The notes under the pieces are model-generated. The model saw nothing but the letters and a program-made list of their open reading frames with translations, was not told the DNA's origin and did not search any database. Shown piece by piece: positions 19,444 to 62,329 of a stretch of 64,000 nt of DNA. How positions within the stretch are numbered: position 1 is the stretch's first letter; the number at the start of each line of letters is the position of its first letter. The DNA is taken from positions 68,903,888 through 68,967,887 of the forward strand of contig OZ038383.1 in NCBI GenBank assembly GCA_964036045.1, written 5' to 3'. This stretch comes from Eutreptiella sp. 'Long Island Sound 2002' (Eukaryota > Euglenozoa > Euglenophyceae > Eutreptiales > Eutreptiaceae). A program made the position numbers and the translations under genes.

Positions 19444-20569
19444 GTTGGTGTCGGATTTTCCGTGTGAGCAACCCACAGAGGTGTTTCCGCTGGCTTACTC
19501 TGCCCTTTGGGTGGAAGTATTCGCCGGTGCTTTGTCAGCGGCTTGTTTCCGCACTGGTCCGTAGGGCCTTGCGTGACTTACAAGCACGGTGGATCACTTA
19601 CCTTGACGACGTCCTTGTTTCTGCTGTTGGTAGGAATCGGGCTCGGGTTGCTGCGCGACGCGTGGGTCGAGTTTTGAGCAAGGTGGGGTTCCTGATTAGC
19701 CCTAAAAGTGTGCTGGACCCTGTGCGTACTTTGAATTTCATCGGAAAGCAGTTTGCTGCTGCTGCCATGACTGTAGAGAACAAGCCGGGGGTAATTGGCG
19801 GGGTTGTTGCCCTTTGGCTTCTGGGCATTGTCCAAAACAAGTTGAGCAGCAGGATGGCTGCCAGATTGTTGGGTAAGCTTGAGTGGGCGATGAGGCCCAA
19901 TGTAGGGCTTGCTCTTGTTGTCGCTTGGGGACACCGCTGGAAGTTAAACGATTGTTGTTATTTTAGAAGAGGCATCCGTCGTGCACTAATGACGGCTGTT
20001 GCGTTTGCCCTGGCCCCGCAGAGTTTTGCTCCTTGGCCTTGGTTGCCTCAGCTGCCTTCGGCAGACGGTGTTTTCTTCACTGATGCCTCGGAGAGAAGTG
20101 TGGGGGGCAGGTACCGCATTGGGGTTGTCAGAGAGGGCAGGCGGTGGCGCAGTCGTAAGGCATCCAAGTGGGTTATGACACTACAGCAAGTGGAGTTGTA
20201 TGTGGCCGCATACGCTCTGCGCTTGGGTTGCTATATGTGATTGCCGTATATTGTAGTGGCTACGGACAATGACGTCGGTAGAGCACTGATTTTACTGTTT
20301 TAGGTATGTGTGGAGGTATATTGTTGCGCAGCCCGCAGAGTCTACTCCGACAGCTTTTATGGATCACGAGCTGGAATGATCCCCCTCTTGGAGTTTTTTG
20401 GCTGGGCAGGGATTTGAATCCGGCAGACCCGCCTAGTAGGCTGGGATCCTTTCGCACGCACAGTGATGTCATTGACAGCGTTAAGCGCTGGCAGGCAGCT
20501 TGGAAAGGTGAGCCGAATCGGTTCGCTTATCTTGAATTTCTCCCGAGGTTTGCATGGCGTCTGCGATAA
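19444..20569 (+). pseudogene. DIRS RT (after motif A) and RNase H
   Basis: Continues in the frame left at 12348: FRVSNPQRCFRWLTLPFGW (motif B region), then TYLDDVLV (motif C, about 19598), then FIGKQF and the connection, then RNase H FFTDAS (about 20075) and VELYVAAYALRLGC. A stop at 20238-20240 and a frameshift follow. The end is recognised in another frame as LNPADPPSR and YLEFLPRFAW up to 20569. The block LPFGWKYSP..YLDD with LNPADPxSR is typical of DIRS/Ngaro-type elements. A homologous decayed stretch lies at 48.1-48.97 kb. Confidence 0.8.
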
Positions 20570-28917: not shown

Positions 28918-30282
28918 CAACAGCAAACAGAGGAGTTGCTGGCAGCGGTGATCGCCCAGCAAGAGCAGAAGGAGCAGCATGCCTAGCCCAAAGCCGAGCA
29001 GGCCGAGGCCAAGCCCAAGGCGGCGGCCGAGGTCAAGCCCAAGCCACCCCCCCCTCGCCAAGCCCAAGCCGAAGCCCCAACCCCAAGCCCCACCTCCTCC
29101 ATTGCCACCCCCTCAGCCGTTGGCCGCCAAGAAGTCGGCCAAGGCGGCCCCGGAGCACGAGCAGCTGGAGGAGCTGGGGGGGGGGTTGCGAGGTCTCTCG
29201 GCTTCCTTCGCGCCGCAAAAGGGGGCAAAGGCCAAGGCGGCGACCAAGGTCGCCCAATGGGAGGCCAAGCTAGTGGAGCTGCGCGGGAAGGGGGATGAGG
29301 TGCGGATCGCCATGGCGGAGTACTCCCTCGGGAAGGCGAAGGAGAAGGTGGAGGAGAAGCAGGAGGCGATCTAGCAGCTGGATCGCAGTGTGCGGAGCAT
29401 GGAGAGGAGCGTGGCGGCGGAGGCTGAGGCGGAGGTGAAGGAGGAGGTGGTGGATGAGGTGGTTGAGGTGGAGGTGGAGGCGGAGGAGATGGTGGAGGAG
29501 ACGGTGAAGGAGGAGGTGGAGGCAAAGGTGGTGGTGGAGACGGCGGCGGGGGGGGGGGGGGGGGCTGGATTGGCCGAGGTTTTTTGCGGGGGTCGAGGGA
29601 TGCGGGGTCCATCAAGGACCTGCCAAGGGACCCGGCCATCCTGACTGGCCCCCACCCCCCAAACCTGGAGCACCCCTCCTCGTCCCCCCGGAGAGTCAGG
29701 TTTGGACTCTCCATTTTCTGATGCAGCGGGTGCATCAAAGGCTTTTGGGGCCGGGGAGGTGGGTATGGGTGGACGAAGGGGGGGTCGTCCACCTGCAGAA
29801 GCCCATGCGGGTGGGGGTGGTCCGAGGGTGGTGGGGGTGGCAACACGAGTTGCCCGGGCGGACTTGGGGGGAGTCGCCCCCCCCCCCCCCCCCGGAAAAG
29901 GGGGTGCAGATATTTGAGTTGGCCCAACTCAACCTCTTCCCCCCCGAGAAGAAAAGGGGGGGGGGGGGGCAGCCAGTGGTGATTCATGGGCATGTGCTGG
30001 CAGGCGCTGGGGCTGGGGGGGATGGAGTTGACGGGTAGGACCTGGACGTGGACGCCGACCTAGTAGGCGCTCATGATCAATGGGGGGTTCGACCCGGCGG
30101 CGGCCAACCGGGGGGCGCATGCCGGATTGGTGCACGGCATCGCCTCCGGGCCCAAGTCCAAGCCCAAGCCGACCGCAACCCCCGCAATCGGGGACCCCCC
30201 TCAGCCGCACCCCCCCAACCCCCGGGACGCCTTCGCCAAGGCCTTGGGGGCCATCTCTGCCGCCCTAGACCGGCAAGGCACG

Positions 30283-30426
30283 GTATGTTGACTGCGTTGT
30301 AGCGTTGCTCTAGCAAACCGTTCTAGCGTTGATCTAGCCACCGCCGTGTTGCCGCTGCTAGAACGCCGCTACAGCAATTGCCTAGAACGCCGCTAGAACA
30401 CACTTGCCTCATGTTTCTATTCTCAG
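30283..30426 (+). other. second intron in gene 2 of copy A (CTAG-rich)
   Basis: gtatgttgac...tctattctcag. Interior: cgttctagcgttgatctag, ctagaacgccgct, cctagaacgccgctagaac. Counterpart in B: 60440-60594. Confidence 0.7.
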
Positions 30427-31477
30427 GTGGTGAGCGTGCAGACGTGTGGAGCCCACCCTCGCAGGGTGCGCGTGGAGTGGCGCGATGGCGGAGGCTGGAC
30501 GCACCTCGGGGGGGTCACCGAGTTGGGCCGGATGATGGGGAATGACCCCAATTTGGCCCTCTCGGTGCTGCACAGATTGGGTAGGTGGGAGGCGGGCAGG
30601 AGTGTGGGGGGCATGGTCCCGCAGCGCAAGGGTTGGGTGAGGGTGCACGACCGGGCGGGGGAGACCAGCAGCAGCAGCAAGAGCAACAACAACACCACCG
30701 CCACACCACCGCCACCAACGGGGAGAGGACACTCCCCCCAAGGCCCCCACAGCCCCCCCCCCAAGGCCCCCAAGAAGAAATCCCGCCACTTCGAGAGTAG
30801 CGAGGAAGACGCCCCCCCCCCCCGAAGCACAGACCAAGCCCAAGCCCAAGGCCAAGCCCAAGCCCAACGGCAAGGGCAATGGCAAGGCCACCCCCCCCCC
30901 AAACCCCAAGCCCCCCCCTTGGAGGATAGGGGCCGGGACGCCTATGGGAATGTGCCGGGTGTGGGGGACCCCCGGTAAGTCACTTGGAAGGAGGGGGGCA
31001 ATGGGGGGACCGTCAGGCAAGTGACGGTGTTGGGGGATTGGGATAAGGAGTTGGACCCGGGGGAGCGGTGGGTGGTGTCGCAGGGGTCCAATGGTGTCGC
31101 AGGGGTCCAATGCGGAGGCGGGGAAGAAGGCGAAGAAGAGGAAGCGGGAGAAAGAGGGGGGCACCTTCCGGGTGCCGGGGGAGTTCCTCTTCCTCGCCTG
31201 GGAGGAGGTGGAGGGCCACCTCCGGGACGCCTTGCAGGAGGGGGACGACGGGGACGACGGGGATGACGGGGATGACGGGGATGACAAGGGGGACGAGGGT
31301 GGCGACAAGGGGGAGGGGGGTGACAAGGGGGGTGACAAGGGGGGTGAGAAGGAAGGGGACACGGGGGGTGAGAAGGGGGTTGCGGGGAGCAAGGATGCGC
31401 CCCGGCAACCCCCCACCACGCAGGAGGGGTAACCTGTGTGTCGCGACTGGCTAATGGGGGTCCGGGGGGGGCAAGGG

Positions 31478-34009: not shown

Positions 34010-34033
34010 CTTAGGCCACGCAAACTGCCCACC
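34010..34033 (+). repeat. left TIR of T
   Basis: 24 bp, perfect inverted match to 41816-41839. A copy with one change (cttagcccacgc) is at 34888-34911, where the tandem-duplicated end begins. Confidence 0.92.
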
Positions 34034-34887
34034 CCCGTGGCCCACTTTTGCCCCGTTCTATACCCAAAAAGAGCAGTGTAAAAAACTCCCCTTTTTTGAA
34101 CGTGTATTTTCGCGGCCGATGAAGTTAGGGGTTCAAAACACCCTTTCTACACTACTACTTCATGATGATTGAAAATGCTCATCTCAAAAGTATGTTTCCC
34201 ATGGTTGCAGCTGGAGCCAGCACCCACCTTGACGAAAAGTACTTGTGGGATGTCCCGCAATTACATTTGTTGGTGATATTCAATCGTGCACATGTTGGTT
34301 ACTGTAGTCACCGCGTATTGGACATGTCTTGTTACTTTGTATCTTTGGTATCAAGTTTATCATTGAAGCAGCTGGGGCCAGCACCTTTGCAAGCAATTTC
34401 ACCTTTCCTTGGTTCTCTTTGGCAGGAAGGTGCGGGTGCCAGCACTTGCTGACTCAAATGGTCTTCTCGAATCCCTTTTTGGCTCAAAGTAGCTGATGCC
34501 AGCACCTTTCAACGCAATCGAGTCTCTGAGATGATGTTCCGGACTATGAGTGCTGGCACCAGCACCAACTCCAGAGAGCAACCTGGTTAGTACCATTCCC
34601 ATATCCATTCCACCGATGTTTATCTTCATAAGGTACGTGCATCTCATTGAAGGATAGGGAGTGTGCTGTGTTTTGCCACCATGTGCATCGTGTATTTCAC
34701 TTGCATCACCAGACTTTTGTAATGAAATTTTCCTACTCCGTTGTTCGGCATCTACTACGTACTGGACATTATTCCAATGGGTCTTCTTTATTACGTGATG
34801 CCCATGCTGGCGAGCCGGGGGCTCTGATGTTAGTGCACCTATTGGCACAGGTCCGCTGCAACCGTCGTACTCGTAAGACTGTACCTC
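34010..34887 (+). repeat. 878-bp left-end duplication, outer copy
   Basis: Repeated almost unchanged as 34888-35765 (period exactly 878). Each copy starts with the TIR and holds five palindrome boxes and a candidate exon ending HAGEPG..LVHLLAQVRCNRRT. Only the inner copy is continuous with the 617-aa gene region, so the outer one is a partial duplicate of the end. Confidence 0.9.
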
Positions 34888-35765
34888 CTTAGCCCACGCA
34901 AACTGCCCACCCCCGTGGCCCACTTTTGCCTCGTTCTATACCCAAAAAGAGCAGTGTAAAAAACTCCCCTTTTTTGAACGTGTATTTTCGCGGCCGATGA
35001 AGTTAGGGGTTCAAAACACCCTTTCTACACTACTACTTCATGATGATTGAAAATGCTGATCTCAAAAGTATGTTTCCCATGATTGCAGCTGGGGCCAGCA
35101 CCTTCCTTGACGAAAAGTACTTGTGGGATGTCCCGCAATTACATTTGTTGGTGATATTCAATCGTGCACATGTTGGTTACTATAGTCACCGCGTATTGGA
35201 CATGTCTTGTTACTTTGTATCTTTGGTATCAAGTTTATCATTGAAGCAGCTGGGGCCAGCACCTTTGCAAGCAATTTCACCTTTCCTTGGTTCTCTTTGG
35301 CAGGAAGGTGCGGGTGCCAGCACTTGCTGACTCAAATGGTCTTCTCGAATCCCTTTTTGGCTCAAAGTAGCTGGTGCCAGCACCTTTCAATGCAATCGAG
35401 TCTCTGAGATGATGTTCTGGACTATGAGTGCTGGCACCAGCACCAACTCCAGTGACCAACCTGGTTAGTACCATTCCCCTATCCATTCCACCGATGTTTA
35501 TCTTCATAAGGTACGTGCATCTCATTGAAGGATAGGGAGTGTGCTGTGTTTTGCCACCATGTGCATCGTGTCTTTCACTTGCATCACCAGTCTTTTGTAA
35601 TGAAATTTTCCTACTCCGTTGTTCGGCATCTACTATGTACTGGACATTATTCAAATAGGTCTTCTTTATTACGTGATGCCCACGCTGGCGAGCCGGGGGT
35701 TCTGATGTTAGTGCACCTATTGGCACAGGTCCGCTGCAACCGTCGTACTCGTAAGACTGTACCTC
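34888..35765 (+). repeat. 878-bp left-end duplication, inner copy
   Basis: Begins with the one-mismatch TIR and ends at gtacctc, after which sequence unique to T starts. Differences from the outer copy are scattered single bases. Confidence 0.9.
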
Positions 35766-35842
35766 AAATTGTTGTTGCAAGTAAGCAAAATAGGAAGCCA
35801 CGTTGGTTGTCCGCTTTCACGAAACAGTTATATATGCTATAG
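35525..35842 (+). CDS. candidate upstream exon of T gene 1
   Basis: An open frame in the same frame as the 617-aa ORF, which starts 70 bp after its stop (TAG 35840-35842). Translation: FSYSVVRHLL, then SSLLRDAHAGEPGVLMLVHL, then LAQVRCNRRTRKT, basic and free of low complexity. An intron between 35.82 and 35.90 kb (for example ending acttacag before GTCAACC) could join it to the ORF and skip the stop. The splice sites are a guess. A truncated second copy lies in the outer 878-bp repeat. Confidence 0.4.
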   Translation: MKDRECAVFCHHVHRVFHLHHQSFVMKFSYSVVRHLLCTGHYSNRSSLLRDAHAGEPGVLMLVHLLAQVRCNRRTRKTVPQIVVASKQNRKPRWLSAFTKQLYML

Positions 35843-35911
35843 CCTGTCCTGCACAAGGCTGCACGTCCAACTAGTAAGGTATCACGGAAAGACACACTTA
35901 CAGGTCAACCT

Positions 35912-37765
35912 TTGACGCAGGGTGTTCGCCGTGTTTTAGCAAACTGTGGTGTTGTTACCAATCGCCCTGTACCACCAACTGCCAAGGCTACCTCGGCTGC
36001 ACAACAACTGTGGTCGTCCATGTCAAACCACCAAATGGCTATGTGGTTTGATAACTGGTGGTGGAAGAGGTCTACTACTGACCCAGAGCATCCCAATCCC
36101 AGCATGAACCTGACAGTGTTTGCAATGTTGCACACTGCAGACCTATGTCCCTTCCCTGGGCATCCGTCTTTGGTAACCGTGTTGGGACAGCTGGACTCGG
36201 CTGTGCATTCCACTGCTACTGCACTTCGCTCCTTGAACGATGTTACACGGGTTTCGCTTGATGCGGAGCCTGAGTTTATTCGTGTTCCCCTCGATATTAA
36301 ACGGGACAACGTTAGGTCACTACAATTCCGGCCACTGTTGTTGACCGATTTGACTACCGGTGGGATCCTTGATTTGCTACACATTCTACAAGAGATCCAC
36401 GACATACAACGGCACACCCGGCGCCCCATGCCCCTAATAATTGATATGAAAATACATTTTTACTTACTGCGTTTTTTGTACGGGGAGTCATATGTGCAGT
36501 ACAATTTCCATGAGCATCTGTCCATGTTGCCTTGTATGTACGGTGCGTGGCACCCTTACAAACACACTGCCCTTGAGGTATACAAGGCCTTCTTTCGTAT
36601 CTTTGCTGCGTTGGAAAACTGTAATTTGCAAGTGGGTGCCATGGTGTACCACCACCGTAAGCTGCTCCACATTGAGAAAGTGGTAGCAGCACTACTACTT
36701 GTAGGTAACTCTGTACGTGTACGTATTCAACGCAAATTGGAATGGTTGCAGCTGGCACCAGCATCTCTCTCAGCAGTTCAAGTGGATACAGCTACCCGTT
36801 GGTTGCAAGGCCTGCAGTCCTTGCTGTTTAGTTATGTCCCTGCACTTTTTGCGTTAGGCGTACAGGTACGCAACTGCAACTGGTCAGGGCGACAACCAGG
36901 CACTGGTCAGGTAGCCCACACAGTTTTGCAATGGAGCCTGTTGCTACATCTGTTTCTTACTGGCGATTGGGAAGCCGAAACAGAATACGTTCGCAGTTTG
37001 AGTATCACACTTGCAGTGTGGCAGGAGTGGATGAGTAATACCCTAGGTTGTCTCTTTGGTGAAGAGATTGGTGAGGCCCTGTTGTCCCGGCTCTCCGCCC
37101 GGGTCAAGCTCCATCCAACTGCATTATCGCAACCTGCTCTAATGGACTTGTTGCTCAGCATGCCACACCCGCACATGGGCACCAAAACCCTTCGCGGCAA
37201 GCTGCGCACTGGTCTGTGCGATCTTTTTCGAGCACGTCTCCGTTGCTTTATCGCCTGGTGTACCAGTCCCCAGCTTTTGTTTGCCCCATTTACTACAGCT
37301 AAAACCACTGCTTTTGTTGGCCTTCTACCTGAAGGACACACGTTTCCCAAGCCCATCCCTGATTCTGTTAATGAGGCTGCTCTGCGAAAGGTTTTTCGCA
37401 GGAGTGTGCTGTTATTATTATCCAACCGGTCCCCTCCGGAAGGTGTTACTAAGTACTTGGATCAATGCAATTTTAGGAGAGACCCTGCAGAGGTTGCACA
37501 GCTCACTAGCCTAATGGAACGGTTCCGCACACGGAACAGGCGCGGGAAAGGGGGGGGGAAGGGCAAGGGTAAGGGTGCCCCTGATGTTGATGATGCTGAT
37601 GCACCAGATCGGTTTGTGGGGGTAGAGGATGACCACATGTCCGTGTCCAGTGCTGATTCCCTTGGCTCCCTGGGGCATCTGGTAGTTGATGTGGATACCA
37701 TGAGTGATGCCCCCCCCCCTTGGTTTTGCTTCAAGAGGAAGACAATTCAGTTTGCCTCCCAGTGA
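35912..37765 (+). CDS. T gene 1: 617-aa protein, candidate transposase
   Basis: The longest clean ORF of the window, with no stop from 35912 to TGA 37763-37765. Mostly alpha-helical, Leu-rich composition. Recognisable points: IDMKIHFYLLRFLYGESYVQ (about residues 173-192), MYGAWHPYKHTALEVYKAFF (about 208-227), a Trp-rich middle, and a C-terminal tail that is first basic/Gly-rich (RRGKGGGKGKGKG) then acidic (DVDDADAPD). A likely 72-nt in-frame intron, 36705-36776 (gtaact..ctctctcagcag), surrounds a palindrome box; splicing would shorten the protein by 24 residues. I do not recognise the family. As the large gene of a TIR element with target duplication, transposase is the obvious candidate role. 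Confidence 0.7.
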   Translation: MTQGVRRVLANCGVVTNRPVPPTAKATSAAQQLWSSMSNHQMAMWFDNWWWKRSTTDPEHPNPSMNLTVFAMLHTADLCPFPGHPSLVTVLGQLDSAVHSTATALRSLNDVTRVSLDAEPEFIRVPLDIKRDNVRSLQFRPLLLTDLTTGGILDLLHILQEIHDIQRHTRRPMPLIIDMKIHFYLLRFLYGESYVQYNFHEHLSMLPCMYGAWHPYKHTALEVYKAFFRIFAALENCNLQVGAMVYHHRKLLHIEKVVAALLLVGNSVRVRIQRKLEWLQLAPASLSAVQVDTATRWLQGLQSLLFSYVPALFALGVQVRNCNWSGRQPGTGQVAHTVLQWSLLLHLFLTGDWEAETEYVRSLSITLAVWQEWMSNTLGCLFGEEIGEALLSRLSARVKLHPTALSQPALMDLLLSMPHPHMGTKTLRGKLRTGLCDLFRARLRCFIAWCTSPQLLFAPFTTAKTTAFVGLLPEGHTFPKPIPDSVNEAALRKVFRRSVLLLLSNRSPPEGVTKYLDQCNFRRDPAEVAQLTSLMERFRTRNRRGKGGGKGKGKGAPDVDDADAPDRFVGVEDDHMSVSSADSLGSLGHLVVDVDTMSDAPPPWFCFKRKTIQFASQ

Positions 37766-38239
37766 CGAGGAGGAGGGGGCAGTGTTCCAAGAATAACCCC
37801 TCCCCCTACCTAACCATAGGGTAGGGTTACGCTTGTCTGCATGAGTAGCTGGTGCCAGCATTCCCTCCTATTGTTCCTGCTTTCCTCGCTGCACATTGCA
37901 CACGCACCGTTGTCTGTTGTCTGTCGCACTGTTTTCTGTTCGGTCTGTTTGGTCTGGATGCAATGGAATCAAAGTCTGGCACGTGTACTGACCAGTCACG
38001 GAAACATGATCATTTGAGACGGCCGTCTCCTTCCAGGGCTTTGGAACAAGTGCGCAATTTACCAGTGCCATGTCAGTAGTAGCGAAGCGGATGCCGCTGT
38101 CGGGGATTAATTGACTGCGATGTGCGCTGCCCTTCGTATGGACAGAGCCACTGACACACCGCTCAATTTGCGCCATTTTCTGCTGAAACTGCTGTTCCAT
38201 TACTGATTTCTGTCGATTTGCCACACCATTTCCCTTCAA

Positions 38240-41091
38240 ATGAGACTCTTCATCATAATGTCAGATGCAACCCCTGCTGAGGGTGCTGGTACAATGTCAC
38301 CTCTACCAATGACACCGTCAACAAACGGGGGATTCCTAAGCCAGTCTCAGGATGTGACAGCATCACAGCCAGTTCCAGCGCCAAGTGGTAAAGGAGGCAA
38401 GAAAGACAGTGCACTGAAGAAAAAGCTCGCGGACCACTGTGAAAAAAAGGAGGTGGAACTACCCTTGGAGAAGCTGTGATGGGACGAGAAGATGCAGTTT
38501 GGGCAGATACGAAAATGGTCTGAGGATGAGGTACTGAACAAGGTCAAGACCGCCGACTACCCTTATCCGGATTGTAATATGGGGTGATGGAAGTATGCTG
38601 CCTTCTGTGCGCACAGTTTGCTGTTTCGTTACCGATAACGTTCGTCGGTGCTGGTGCCAGCATCGCTTGTCCAAAATTGCCGTTGACTTTGATCATTTGT
38701 GACCGGGTGCAATATCAGGTGGGATCTACCGGATACTGTCTGGCCAGCACATAGTGGATGCTGCTCGGCGCGTGAAACTGGAGCTGGAGAAGCGAAACTT
38801 GCCCCCTCCCCGATGGTGTTCCCATTTCTTGGCGACTGTTGTGCGGCCTGAGACCCCGTTGACCATTCGTGAGTCCCTGGCAGGAATCAGTCAAGCCAAC
38901 CAAACAGCACGAGCACCAACTTTGTGTGAGAGAGTTCTGCGACTGGTGGTGGAATACGAAAGGGATACTGAGGGAAACTTAACTGCCAGAGAGCACCTGA
39001 CGAATTTGTGGGTGAAAGGTGGATTCGGCGCTCAAGATGGCACACTGGTGTGTGCCTGCCCGTCAGCACGTCCGTTTGTTTGTGGTTTCATCGCCCTGTC
39101 AACGTACTCCGCCATCTATTGCCCAGTGTGAATCCTGTGGTACCCCTTGTAGGCCAATATGATAAAGCAGTGGTCTCCTGTGGCTCTGTTGGTGAGTACT
39201 TGTGGACGTGAAGCAGCACATGCAGTGCAGATGCTGGAGGCCCGCGGTCATAGCATGACTGTGAATCAAATGCGTTGCTTCGAAGGACAGGTGCCCCCCG
39301 ATATCCGGACAATCTGCAAGTTTATGGCTTACACGGCAAATGGTGGAGCACAGCTCAAGAAGATGGGAAAGCGATTGAAACTGGATAGGTTATGGAGTTG
39401 GCATCTGTGTCATCCTGAGAACAATCTCATCCATGAATCTCGCCGTATGTTTGCCCTCCCATGCATCTGCGGTGGCTGTTCGATTGCAATTTGTTGTGAG
39501 AGGTGCTGGGGCCAGCACCCATCGTTCGGAAATGCCGTTTTGGTGCCTGCAAAACTGGGGTCTCAAAGTTTGTACTATGATTGCTAAGGTGGACTGGGTG
39601 AACGAGAAAAGTGTGAATCCCTCCTGGCAAGCCGAAGTGACTTGTATTTCAAGACATACACCTGGCGTTGGACAGAAGAGGACCCTTTTCCACCATGGAA
39701 ATACGTTGTCAGTGCGCCGATTTGGAAGGATGTCAGCTATGTTGGTCTGCGAGAATCTTTGTCGAAACCACTGGTGTTACCAACCGTCCAGGCGAATCAA
39801 GACAATTTCTTCACCGTCGACCTGCACGTGGGTGCCACTGAGGAGAATTCACAGGTCTGTGTGCTACCCCAGTTGCAAAGCGATTCACTGACGTCACTGC
39901 ATGGCCTTCACTCGGAACTTCACTTGGAACATGAATGTGTTGCAGTTGGAAGGGGACTCGGACGGAAAACTACTGGTGCTGCCAGCTGCAATTGGCTCGG
40001 CCATCCCAGCAGCAGTGGCTGGTATCTCTTTTACAATGGTGTACATTGAGCCCCCCCGTGGCTTTACCCTGGGCATCCATGTATTGGTCAGTACAGTGCT
40101 GCAGCGTGGCGTTCTTGTTGTTGTTGCCGGTGAGCCTGGTGATTGTCGTGGCATTGTGGACAGTCTTCGTGAACAGCACCAAGATACGGGGTTGTGTGCT
40201 ATTAAGCTGTCAATGTACCACCTCAACAAGAAGTCACCACAATTTACTATGGGGTGTACTGAAGTGAATCTTCTCTCGAAACATCCGCTGCCACAAAAGG
40301 TATCTAGACCACACTGCGACCCTGGTTGTTCGGACACGCGTTCAAAAATCACAACAAAATGGTAGTTTCACCTCGTTGCAGCTGGGGCCAGCTCCTTTCA
40401 TTGAAGAATTGCTTTTTTCCCCCCCTTTAAGGTGCCTCGATACATTACTGTGACGGATTTCCCAAGTGGGCGGTACCTGCCCGTGGAGATTGTTGGTTAC
40501 TTGCTGACACTGGCTGGTGAAATGGTGGTGTACCAAGAAATATGGCTGCTGCTATTGTCCTCCTCCCACACATTGCCCGGGGCCCTCACAATTCGATTTC
40601 ATATTCCTGTCAATGTGGTGGTTGGTATCCTTGGGGATACGGCAATTCAGGACTTTGTCACACATGCTGTTGCTGGATGCAAGGAAGCTGATGGCCTGCC
40701 GAATATTGACTGGACTGGGGTGACAAATCAGATGCTCCATGGGGTACCCATTGATTGCAGGGGAAAATTCCGCAAGCTTGAGGACGTAGAACAGGGGGAC
40801 GAGGATGAGGATGGAGAGGAAGTGGCCGAGCATGAAGCAGAGCCGTTGGCCCAAAAGCTGAAGCCCAAAAAAACCAGTGCCAAGCGGAAGCAGGATGAGG
40901 AGAGCAGTAGTTCGAAACGTGCAACTCCAGAGAAGGCTACGAGCAATGGGGCACAGAAGTCTGCGACTGGCGGGGAGAAGTCCAACAGTGAAGGCGCCGC
41001 TGGTGATCCTGCTGACACTGTGAAACCCAAACGACTTGGATTTACCAATTGGACTGCCCGGATCAACAGGGCTGCTGCAGCAAAGAAGTAA
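38240..41091 (+). CDS. T gene 2: six-exon gene with ParB-like segment
   Basis: Exons 38240-38573, 38719-39047, 39153-39444, 39589-39854, 39946-40299, 40432-41091. All GT-AG borders keep phase, and the coding sum is 2,235 nt (744 aa). Exon 1 carries one in-frame TGA (38477-38479), so this copy is truncated unless read through. A second ATG at 38258 (MSDATPAEG) is a possible start. Exon 2 contains GIYRILSGQHIVDAARRVKL, like the Gly-Gln-His helix of ParB-type domains. Exons 4-5 read as a globular domain (YTWRWTEEDPFPPWKY; GISFTMVYIEPPRGFTLGIH). Exon 6 ends in an acidic stretch and a basic, NLS-like tail (KPKKTSAKRKQ). Introns at 38574, 39445 and 40300 each hold one palindrome box. The role may be DNA binding or partitioning of the element, which is speculative. 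Confidence 0.65.
38574..38718 (+). other. intron of T gene 2 with palindrome box
   Basis: gtaata...caatatcag, phase 1; box at 38650-38661. Confidence 0.6.
39445..39588 (+). other. intron of T gene 2 with palindrome box
   Basis: gtatgtttgcc...gattgctaag, phase 1; box at 39505-39516. The donor gtatgttt also precedes the box near 35088 in the duplicated end. Confidence 0.7.
40300..40431 (+). other. intron of T gene 2 with palindrome box
   Basis: gtatctag...ttttttccccccctttaag, phase 0; box at 40381-40392. Confidence 0.75.
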
Positions 41092-41815
41092 TCATGTTTC
41101 TTGATCCCATAAAGACTGGTCCAGTGCTTTGCACTACAACGCTGTCAGTGTTCGTCTTGCACAGTCATGCACTTGTCCGTTGGTTTTGTTGTTACACAGC
41201 ACTCACAATACCTCTGCTTGGTTTGCACCTACTATTTCTTTGTTTTCCTCAGGAAGTGCTGGCACCAGCTACTCTTTGCCCAATTGCTTGTCTTCATTAC
41301 CATTTTTCCAAGTGTTGGTGCTGGCCCCAGCTGCTCAGCTGGATTTTCATGTAAACAGCCCTGTCTTTCAGGTACAACAATTTGCAGGTGAATTTTGCAT
41401 ATACTTCGCAGCGGTGACTCCTATGTATGGTTGTGTATGTGCATGTGATTGTAGTACTGTATTACAAAGCATACGATTCGAAGTTCCCAATGTGGAAATA
41501 GAGACACTGTGTCAGCGTGCTTGTTCGTGTCCACAGTTGAGGGGGGGTTGAGAACAGCGTGATTTTACAGCTTCCTGTTTACATGGTGCAATAAGCCCTA
41601 CATGTGCTTTTCCTCCGATATCACACATTCAATCCAGGAAATGGGAACTGGGTTCAACAGATGAAAATGAAAGAAACGTGTTTGAGACCCCCCAAAAAGG
41701 CCCTGTTTTTGTGCCTACAATAAGACACCATCAAAATGAGGCCACAGACCCCCGCATCTGGTGCTGGCACCAGCACCAGACGTAGATGCTGGTCTGCCAC
41801 CTATGCTTCCGTGAA

Positions 41816-41839
41816 GGTGGGCAGTTTGCGTGGCCTAAG
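41816..41839 (-). repeat. right TIR of T
   Basis: Perfect reverse complement of 34010-34033; followed by TCAAA at 41840-41844. Confidence 0.92.
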
Positions 41840-58933: not shown

Positions 58934-59077
58934 GTATATTTCGTGCTGTGCGTTCTAGCGGTGATCTAGGGAATCGTTCTATTCTTGATCTAGGCAGCAC
59001 GATCGGCCGCTAGACTGTCGCTAGAACGCCGCTAGAATAGTTGCCTAGAACGCCGCTAGAACGATCGTGTGCTACAG
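58934..59077 (+). other. intron in gene 2 of copy B (CTAG-rich)
   Basis: gtatatttcg...gtgctacag; holds cgttctagcggtgatctag, gctagaacgccgctagaa, cctagaacgccgctagaac. Confidence 0.7.
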
Positions 59078-60439
59078 AACGCAGCGACCCAGGCGCTGAT
59101 TGGGCACGTCCCGGAGGCGCAGAGGCGTGTAGCTCCGGCCGAGCACGCCGAGCCGAAGGCCGAGCAGGCCCCGCACCCCAAGCCCAAGGCAGCCCCCCTC
59201 GCCAAGCCCAAGTCCAAGCCCAAGCCCCAACCCCAAGCCCCACATCCACAGTCGCCACCCCCTCCCCCATTGGTAGCCCGGAAGGGGGCGGCAGCCGCAG
59301 CCGAGGAGGAACCGGCGGAGGTGGAGGAGGCGCGGGGAGAGCTCAAAGGGTTCTTGGATTCCCGCGCCGCCTCCAGGGCGGCCAAGACAAGGGCTGAGAC
59401 GAAACTCTCGGCCTGGGAGGCAAAACTGGCCAGCCTCCAGGAGGAGGGAGCGGAGGAGGAGAGGATCCGCTAGGGGGAGGCCAACCTTCGCAAGGCGAAG
59501 GCGAAGGTGGCCGAGAAGCAGCAGGCGATCGAGGGGTTCGATCAGGCGGTGGGGCGGAGCAAGAGGGAGTTGGCGGCGGTGGTGGCGGGGGTGAAGGACG
59601 AGGAGGTGGACAAGGTGGTGGAGGTGGACGTGGAGGGCGAGATGGAGGAGGCGGGCGTGAAGGAGGAGGAGGAGGAGACGAAGGTGGTGGAGGCGGCGCC
59701 GGCGGGGGGGGGGGGGACGAGCGACTGGCTCAGGGGGTTGATGGGGTCGAGGGTTGCGGGGGGCATCCAGGTCCTGCCATGGGACCCGGCAGTCCTGGCT
59801 ACCCCCCAATCCCCAAACCTGGACACCCCCCTCCTCGTCGCCCCGGAGAGTCCGGTATGGACTCTCCGGTTTTTGTTGGTGCGGGTGCACCACCGGCTGT
59901 TGGGGGCGGGGCGGTGGGTATGGGTGGACGGGGAGGGGCAGGGGTTGTCCACGTGGACAAGCCCCTGCGCCTGGGGGTGGTCGAGGGGTCGTGGGGGTGG
60001 CAACGTGAGTTGCCGGGGCCGGGGAATAAGCGATGGGGGGAGGTGGGCCCCCCCCCCCGAAAGGGGGGTAAAGATGTTTTAGTTGGCGCAAACCAACATC
60101 TTCACCCCCGAGCGGAAAAAGGGGGGGGCCACCCACTGGCGATTCGTCGCCCACTGCTGGCAGGGGCTGGGCTTGGGGGGGGGTGAGTGGGTGGGGAAGG
60201 CGTGGGTCTGGACGCCGACCTGGTTGACGCTGCTGGACTTTGGGGGTTTCAACCCCGAGGCGGCGAACCGGGGGGTGTATGCCGTGGTGGTGCACGGCAT
60301 TGCCTCCGGGCCCAAGCCCAAGCCCAAGCCCGCCGCAGCCCCCGTTGGCGGCCCCCCGCAGCCGCACCCCCCCAACCCCGCGGACGCCTTCGCCAAGGCA
60401 CCGGGGGCCATCTCTCCCGCCTTGGACCGCCAAGGCACG

Positions 60440-60594
60440 GTATGTCGATTGCGTTGTAGCGGTGATCTAGTAAACCGTTCTGGCGTTGATCTAGCCACCG
60501 CCGTGCCGCCGCCGCTAGAACGTCGCTAGAACGCTGCTAGAATAGTTGCCTAGAACGCCGCTAGAACGCTCCTGCATTTTGTTTGTCTCTTCAG
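60440..60594 (+). other. second intron in gene 2 of copy B (CTAG-rich)
   Basis: gtatgtcgat...gtctcttcag; holds gcggtgatctag, gctagaacgtcgctagaacg, cctagaacgccgctagaac. Confidence 0.7.
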
Positions 60595-61629
60595 GTTGTC
60601 AGCGTGCAGACGTGTGGAGGCGACCCCCGCGGGGTGCGCGTGGAGTGGCGCGATGCTGGAGGGCCGATGCGCCTCGTGGGGGTCACGGAGTTGAGCCGGA
60701 TGTTGGGGGCGAACCCCAATTTGGCCCCCTTGGTGCTGGAGGGTATGGGTAGGTGGGAAGCGGGCACGAGTGCGGGGGGCATGGACCCGCAGCGCAAGGG
60801 TTGGGGGAGGTTGCAGGACCGGGGGGGGGATGACCAGCAGCAGCAGCAGCACCAGCAGCACCAGCAGCAGGGAGAAGACACCCCCCACCAAGGCCCCCAA
60901 ACCCCCCCCCCAAGGCCCCCAAGAAAAAACCCCGCCCCCGCCACTTCGAGAGTAGCGACGAAGAGGCGCCCCCCCCCCCCCCCCAAGGGCAGCAGGGCAA
61001 GCCCAAGCCCAAGGCCAAGCCGCGGGCCAAGGGCAAGGGCAAAGCCACCCCCCCCCCCCCCAAACCCCAGGCCCCCCCTATGCAAGAAAGGGGCCGGGAC
61101 CCCTATGGGAATGTGCCGGGTGTGGGGGACACCCGGTATGTCCCTTGGGCGGAGGGGGCTAATGGGGGGACCGTCAGCCAAGTGACGGTGTTGGGGGATT
61201 GGGATGAGGAGTTGGACCCGGGGGAGTGGTGGGTGGTGTCGCAGGGGTCCAATGGGGGGGGGAGGGGGGGAAGAAGGGGAAGAAGAGGAAGCGGGAGAAA
61301 GAGGCGGGCACCTTCCGGGTGGCGGGGGACCTCCTCTTCCGCACCCGGGAGGAGGCGGAGGCCCACCTCCGGGAGGCCTAGGAGGCCGGGGACGACGGGG
61401 ATGACGGGGATGACGGGGATGACGAGGGGGACGTGGGTGGGGACAAGGGGGAAGGGGGTGACAAGGGGGGTGAGGCGGGGGCGACAAGGTGGGTGAGAAG
61501 GAAGGGGACACGGGGGTTGGGGGTGAGAAGGGGGGTGCCAGGAGCAAGAATGAGCCCCGGCAACCCCCCACACGCAAGAGGGGTAACCTGCGTGTCGCGA
61601 CTCGCGAATGGGGGCCTGGGGGGGCAGGG

Positions 61630-61760
61630 GGGCTAATCGGGCTAACCGGGCTAATCGGGCTAACCCACCACCAAGTGACCCGGCGCTGGCCCGCCAAGTG
61701 ACCTTCCAAGTGACCTATGGGGTGCGGTGGGGGGCTAACCGGGCTAATCGGGGGCCGGGG
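61630..61760 (+). repeat. 10-bp gggctaacc/gggctaatc repeat, copy B
   Basis: Counterpart of 31478-31600. Confidence 0.65.
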
Positions 61761-62329
61761 GGTGGGGGGGGGAACCCGGCGCTCCGTGAGTCGGGCCAGC
61801 ATCGGGACCCTGTGATTGGCCACGGCTGGCCATGGTAGCCGGGGCAGCTTCTGTTTGAGGAGTGGCGGAGCATTCATATATATCGTTCTAGCGGCGTTCT
61901 AGCGAACCGTTCTAGCGACGTTCTAGAACGCTCGCTAGAACGTCGCTAGAACGCCACTAGAACGAAAAATTTTTGGATTCCAAAATCAGGTGAAAACAGT
62001 GAAATCGTGAAAAAAAAAGTATGGGCCCCCGGGTATGGATAGGGGGGTCCAGGTTAGACACCTCATCTGCCCCCCCCCCCCCCCCTGCGGGGGGGGATTC
62101 CCCTCTTTTTTTCGTTCTAGCCGCTCTGGGCGGTTCTAGGCTAGAACGAGATTGGGTATTCTAGCGTGTACCAAGGGTAACACCTTGCCTCCGTGAGCCG
62201 TAGATGGGGTGATGCTCGGAAATACCTAGGCACTCCAAGCCGCTGCAGCGTGGTAGGCGTGTGTAGCGGGTGGTAGTCTACAGCGGCGCGAGCCTGCCTG
62301 TTTAGGGGGGGGCCTTGGGCCCCTCCGAG

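Follow-up and report, generated by a model that had tools for sequence, protein, structure and literature searches.

A two-gene DNA transposon family of a probably unnamed DDE group in Eutreptiella, with a palindrome array specific to each sampled family

Introduction

What kind of mobile element occupies positions 34010-41839 of a 64,000-nucleotide stretch (the window) from the euglenophyte Eutreptiella sp. 'Long Island Sound 2002' (NCBI GenBank assembly GCA_964036045.1, contig OZ038383.1, positions 68,903,888 to 68,967,887 of the forward strand), and does it belong to any known group? A first-pass annotation, made without database searches, had described the locus as a complete 7.8-kb DNA transposon of an undescribed or poorly described group, with perfect 24-bp terminal inverted repeats (TIRs), identical TCAAA flanks, a 617-amino-acid (aa) open reading frame (ORF) and a six-exon gene for a ParB-like accessory protein. 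Our analyses show a multi-copy family, and our reading as a whole, in which we have good confidence, is that the window holds a defective copy from an unnamed DDE group, with a transposase encoded by gene 1, an accessory protein encoded by gene 2, and a link to short palindromes distributed along the element. New here is that each sampled family has its own palindrome, which recurs 13-14 times per element in families 1 and 2, those studied most closely.

Results

The window element is a defective copy of a multi-copy family

The window copy spans 7,830 bp, and the sequence bore out its TCAAA flanks and its 24-bp TIRs (CTTAGGCCACGCAAACTGCCCACC), which match each other perfectly (the repeat search reported a 25-bp arm, one flank base per side included). 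It is longer than the full element, at 6.95-6.99 kb (about 6.97 kb), because its left 878 bp, TIR included, are directly duplicated; this duplication is absent from the other full-length copies aligned. The canonical part is thus 34888-41839 (6,952 bp), and the TIR copy inside the second left unit (34888-34911) carries one mismatch. The copy proposed to be complete is in fact defective, with gene 1 and gene 2 both disrupted.

In the 2.28-Gb assembly containing the window (contigs up to 201 Mb), the exact 24-bp TIR occurs at 240 sites (112 on the plus and 128 on the minus strand), compared to none for a reversed-pattern control. Among the first 100 sites listed, 34 adjacent plus/minus pairs lay less than 13 kb apart, and 20 of these 34 spanned 6.9-7.0 kb. 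We inspected 21 copies of this family (family 1), namely the window copy and 20 others fetched as 9-kb stretches. Both TIRs were within the stretch in 15, three of them internally deleted (L009, L013, L024), and the right TIR was not found within the fetched 9 kb in the other six. In support of the first-pass annotation, 5-bp target-site duplications (TSDs) recur in other copies: they are perfect, with varying sequence, in 14 of the 15 two-ended copies, and agree at four of five bases in L020. Ten full-length copies, left after excluding the three with internal deletions and two with internal inversions (L018, L021), were aligned and have a mean identity of 97.4%. The TIR sites, the TSDs and this identity therefore establish a genuine multi-copy transposon family.

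Two structural peculiarities were observed among these copies. Internal inverted segments occur in three of the 15 two-ended copies (L013, L018 and L021; about 279, 615 and 152 bp respectively) and could be products of faulty gap repair following transposition. At the right end (window 41127-41839), a possibly coding plus-strand frame of 242-245 codons runs through the right TIR in seven of the ten aligned copies, the window copy excepted.

Gene 1 encodes a predicted DDE transposase

The 617-aa ORF (35912-37765) does lie in the transposase frame, but is a fragment of gene 1, which is interrupted in the window by a stop at 35840-35842. Two of the ten aligned copies keep the frame open, L011 for 751 codons and L019 for 763. 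In gene 1 the first in-frame ATG is at 35600, and further exons upstream are possible. A structure model of its product, P1, with a predicted local distance difference test score (pLDDT) of 79, revealed the RNase H-fold core for which the annotation had suggested looking, and matched P-element, Hermes, Transib and RAG1 structures, the P-element best; D, D and EE..EA are conserved across seven diverse gene-1 sequences. (An earlier model, A2, with 8 rows and a pLDDT of 42.8, was set aside as too poor.) TIRs, a fixed-length TSD, a predicted RNase H fold and conserved D, D and E are all marks of DDE/D cut-and-paste elements, and gene 1 almost certainly encodes a DDE transposase, whose catalysis would insert the element with 5-bp TSDs.

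No curated Pfam cut-off was reached by the six window ORFs or by P1 and P2 (the gene 2 product) from open copies, and the three weak matches among six remote gene-1 homologues, like the three from families 2-4 (see below), were all under cut-off. A PDB sequence search gave no match to the transposase, and PHROGs, searched with two P1 relatives and P2, gave a single weak one (P0005, E 0.66). In viral contigs, a first search found no match and another found 19 pattern matches, none of them confirmed; the one match in prokaryote genomes was not confirmed either. The proposal of an undescribed group thus stands in a comparison that excluded Repbase and Dfam: neither a named-family match nor a lack of other copies, each of which would count against it, emerged from the Pfam, PDB and genome searches.

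Substitutions sorted by codon position in the aligned copies gave no evident coding bias, in keeping with decay of the copies once inserted. Since 36 of 60 scored transposase matches were stop-free, the element may have been active recently.

Gene 2 accompanies gene 1 in several families

By sequence comparison, gene 2 is a genuine six-exon gene co-inherited with gene 1. The outline drawn in the first-pass annotation was right: in three of the ten aligned copies (L010, L011, L028) the frame of gene 2 runs uninterrupted for 746 aa and all five introns have GT..AG borders. In the window copy itself the gene is broken, exon 1 having lost 14 bp and acquired a stop (38477-38479). Besides these open frames and intron borders, a second family (family 2) independently backs the six-exon model: all five of its stretches contain gene 2, with identities of 24-33% per aligned segment and E values from 1e-72 to 7e-83. 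In the family-2 copy L035, introns 1 to 3 are positioned as in family 1 and introns 4 and 5 are absent. A family-3 copy, L032, has a partial gene 2 homologue (E 7.5e-25), so that families 1 and 2 have the two genes together, and family 3 partly so, as expected of the two-gene transposon first proposed. Less complete sequences were L037, with gene 1, gene 2 and the right TIR present and the left TIR not found, and L034 (family 4), with gene 1 and four palindromes present and TIRs not found.

The suggested likeness of P2 to ParB is still a candidate reading, but found no support in Pfam, NCBIfam, PHROGs, PDB sequences or profile comparison. NCBIfam and phage records gave no usable match to P2, PDB sequences gave one at chance level (E 0.3), and none of 7990 scored candidates was a homologue at E <= 0.01, for which introns may be the reason. 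HHalign of gene 2 against an F-plasmid SopB profile of nine sequences (of 19, after a BLAST filter) returned a probability of 0.9% and E 0.061, with incomplete input rows (pieces missing in three of the five from family 2). A GQH..AA segment looks, by eye only, like the ParB G..R motif. Also by eye, gene 2 reads EPP (family 1) or EVP (family 2) at a candidate position for the DPPY methylase motif, and neither P1 and P2 of open copies nor families 2-4 matched a methylase family in Pfam; we do not claim a methylase-like gene 2 from this by-eye reading.

Each sampled family has its own palindrome

The family-1 palindrome, GCTGGNNCCAGC, occurs 13 times in a canonical element, once imperfectly: five at the left end, one in gene 1, one in the spacer between the genes, one each in introns 1, 3 and 5 of gene 2, and three at the right end. 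Exact sites number 15 in the window copy versus 0 in the remaining window (18 versus 4 with at most one mismatch) and 7 to 12 per fetched copy. At that tolerance L028 has 14 sites, whereas 200 first-order Markov sequences averaged 0.4 and never exceeded 3.

Family 2 has a different palindrome, CTGGCCGAAATTTCGGCCAG. Four complete copies have 14 sites apiece when up to two mismatches are allowed, the core being exact in 11 to 13 of them, and these four stretches have none outside the element. The left end has five of the sites and the right end three, gene 1 has one, the spacer three, and introns 2 and 3 a single site each. Across the genome there are 6168 exact family-2 sites, counted inside or outside elements alike, versus no control matches. 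In family 3 (L032) the palindrome is TGGCGAAATTTCGCCA, in imperfect copies, and in family 4 (L034) it is AGCGCAAATGCGCT, at four sites. The four palindromes all differ but overlap in part, families 2 and 3 having the core CGAAATTTCG in common and families 1 and 2 the CTGG/CCAG arms.

Placement is similar in families 1 and 2, with none of the 13 and none of the 14 sites, respectively, in gene-2 exons, although coding constraint alone could partly explain this avoidance of coding DNA. In family 1 the central dinucleotide is TG or GG in four of the five left sites and CA or CC in all three right sites, and is thus roughly inverted between the ends. Palindromes in present copies mutate at the background rate, and methylation-type decay was looked for at these sites and none seen. 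The excerpts of PMC12477816, PMC12730594, PMC10045372 and PMC12810828 that we consulted describe no element-wide, family-specific palindrome arrays.

As to spacing, the five left-end palindromes of L035 (element coordinates 206-487) form a roughly 70-bp tandem array. Four consecutive palindromes in window 38650-41258 are spaced 855, 876 and 877 bp, near the length of the 878-bp duplication, maybe by coincidence.

Features of the window element and its surroundings

Table 1. Mapped features of the window element (window coordinates; empty cell, no value given; strand ".", unstranded).
Feature	Position	Strand	Basis
Left TSD TCAAA	34005-34009	.	Sequence; 5-bp TSDs in sister copies
Left TIR, 24 bp, CTTAGGCCACGCAAACTGCCCACC	34010-34033	+	Sequence, repeat search, genome count
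878-bp direct duplication of left end, first unit	34010-34887	+	Repeat search, copy alignment
Left end, second unit	34888-35765	+	Repeat search, copy alignment
Left palindrome cluster, duplicated: 34210, 34371, 34432 (imperfect), 34492 (imperfect), 34552		.	Motif search
Left palindrome cluster GCTGGNNCCAGC: 35088, 35249, 35310 (imperfect), 35370, 35430	35088-35441	.	Motif search
Gene 1, DDE transposase P1 (predicted)	35600-37765	+	Frame analysis, remote homologues, fold
Palindrome within gene 1	36751-36762	.	Motif search
Palindrome, spacer between gene 1 and gene 2	37848-37859	.	Motif search
Gene 2 exon 1	38258-38583	+	Copy alignment, splice model
Palindrome, gene 2 intron 1	38650-38661	.	Motif search
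Gene 2 exon 2	38719-39047	+	Splice model, family-2 comparison
Gene 2 exon 3	39153-39444	+	Splice model, family-2 comparison
Palindrome, gene 2 intron 3	39505-39516	.	Motif search
Gene 2 exon 4	39589-39854	+	Splice model, family-2 comparison
Gene 2 exon 5	39946-40299	+	Splice model, family-2 comparison
Palindrome, gene 2 intron 5	40381-40392	.	Motif search
Gene 2 exon 6, stop included	40432-41091	+	Splice model, family-2 comparison
Right palindromes at 41258, 41320, 41763	41258-41774	.	Motif search
Right TIR, 24 bp	41816-41839	-	Sequence, repeat search, genome count
Right TSD TCAAA	41840-41844	.	Sequence

Elsewhere in the window, a retroelement is represented at 19464-20240 by its reverse transcriptase domain (Pfam RVT_1, E 8.9e-12), and two GC-rich regions, 28983-31419 and 59072-61877, have long proline/glycine-rich open frames on their minus strand.

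Discussion

In the mechanism that we propose, the gene 1 protein, with an RNase H-fold catalytic domain and an all-helical insertion, would cut the element at its CTTAGG ends and insert these into target DNA with a stagger of 5 bp. The gene 2 protein would bind the palindromes of its own family in spacers, introns and both end regions, and could thereby build an element-long nucleoprotein complex that serves assembly, expression or protection; by its family-specific binding it would mark its own elements and keep families apart. We regard the case for P2 as the palindrome-binding protein as evenly balanced. Somewhat more tentatively, we suggest a new DDE superfamily in which a palindrome array proper to each family, together with a diverging reader protein, constitutes a self-recognition code with a logic like that of parS/ParB.

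A contender to be taken seriously, even if we would lean against it, is that the transposase or a host factor binds the palindromes and that gene 2 has another role, for example in DNA modification. The rough inversion of family-1 sites between the ends is as for sub-terminal sites bound by transposases, but sites in families 1 and 2 also lie far from the ends, in introns and between genes. A modification role has a precedent in the Sola1-1_Ec32 element of Ectocarpus, whose accessory protein combines ParB and a methyltransferase and is suggested by its authors to mark, perhaps, the element's own DNA (PMC12477816); against such a role in gene 2 stand EPP or EVP at the position picked by eye for DPPY and the lack of a methylase family match.

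The second issue is classification. We think it probable, from the profile, sequence and structure comparisons made, that the element lies outside every existing named superfamily; the rank of the group is probably that of a superfamily, and a new superfamily is the likely outcome. Titles and abstract openings of the open-licence PMC papers listed by our literature searches held nothing pointing to this element. In P and hAT elements the TSD is 8 bp. The element could instead be a far-diverged lineage within the P-element superfamily, or one with a hAT-like fold, in which the TSD has shortened to 5 bp, and the predicted fold is indeed closest to these. We nonetheless consider such membership unlikely because the TSD is 5 bp, not 8, and perfect in nearly all two-ended copies; in addition, gene 1 and its scanned relatives fall below every curated Pfam cut-off, and structural alignments with P and Hermes reach just 8-11% identity.

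Membership of the CACTA-Mirage-Chapaev-Transib group, as a divergent relative of Transib/RAG1 or otherwise, is still less probable. The marks of this group include CxxC and the terminal sequence (PMC12730594, as excerpted). CxxC between the second D and E is missing from all seven gene-1 sequences and H(3-4)H is found in only three, and the termini are CTTAGG..CCTAAG instead of CA..TG, in line with the earlier remark that the TIR start is unlike Transib; TSD length alone is compatible. That the palindromes are functionless products of chance or simple repeats, as the tandem array at family-2 left ends and the background mutation rate in existing copies might suggest, is very hard to reconcile with the excess in L028 over Markov sequences, four differing palindromes in four families, and thousands of exact family-2 sites without a control match.

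A transposon group that numbers hundreds of copies in a single genome, and whose transposase stays below every Pfam cut-off, would close a gap in DDE classification around the P, hAT and RAG folds. Four families that share a genome but not a palindrome, three of them with a diverging gene 2 (family 3 in part), amount to a natural experiment on self-recognition, and the palindrome code, if true, lets each tell its own DNA from that of the others.

Among known systems, Ginger2 has a TSD of 4-5 bp and an integrase-type transposase, according to the part of PMC10045372 that we consulted. Sola1-1_Ec32, likewise a DNA transposon, also has an accessory protein for which binding to the DNA of its own element has been proposed (PMC12477816). 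There the accessory gene is on the opposite strand and its protein has domains of known type, whereas gene 2 shares the strand of gene 1 and no domain was recognised in its product. The Drosophila P-element, the best fold match, has no sequence-family match to gene 1, and the family described here differs from it in its 5-bp TSD, CTTAGG ends, second gene and dispersed palindromes. Hermes, of the hAT group, also matches in fold, but gene 1 has no hAT match in Pfam and the TSD differs. In En/Spm, a CACTA element, sub-terminal repeats are bound by TnpA. Our families resemble En/Spm in having a short repeated motif near both ends and a second element protein, which here would bind that motif, but unlike in En/Spm the motif is a palindrome, differs from family to family and recurs throughout the element, even within introns.
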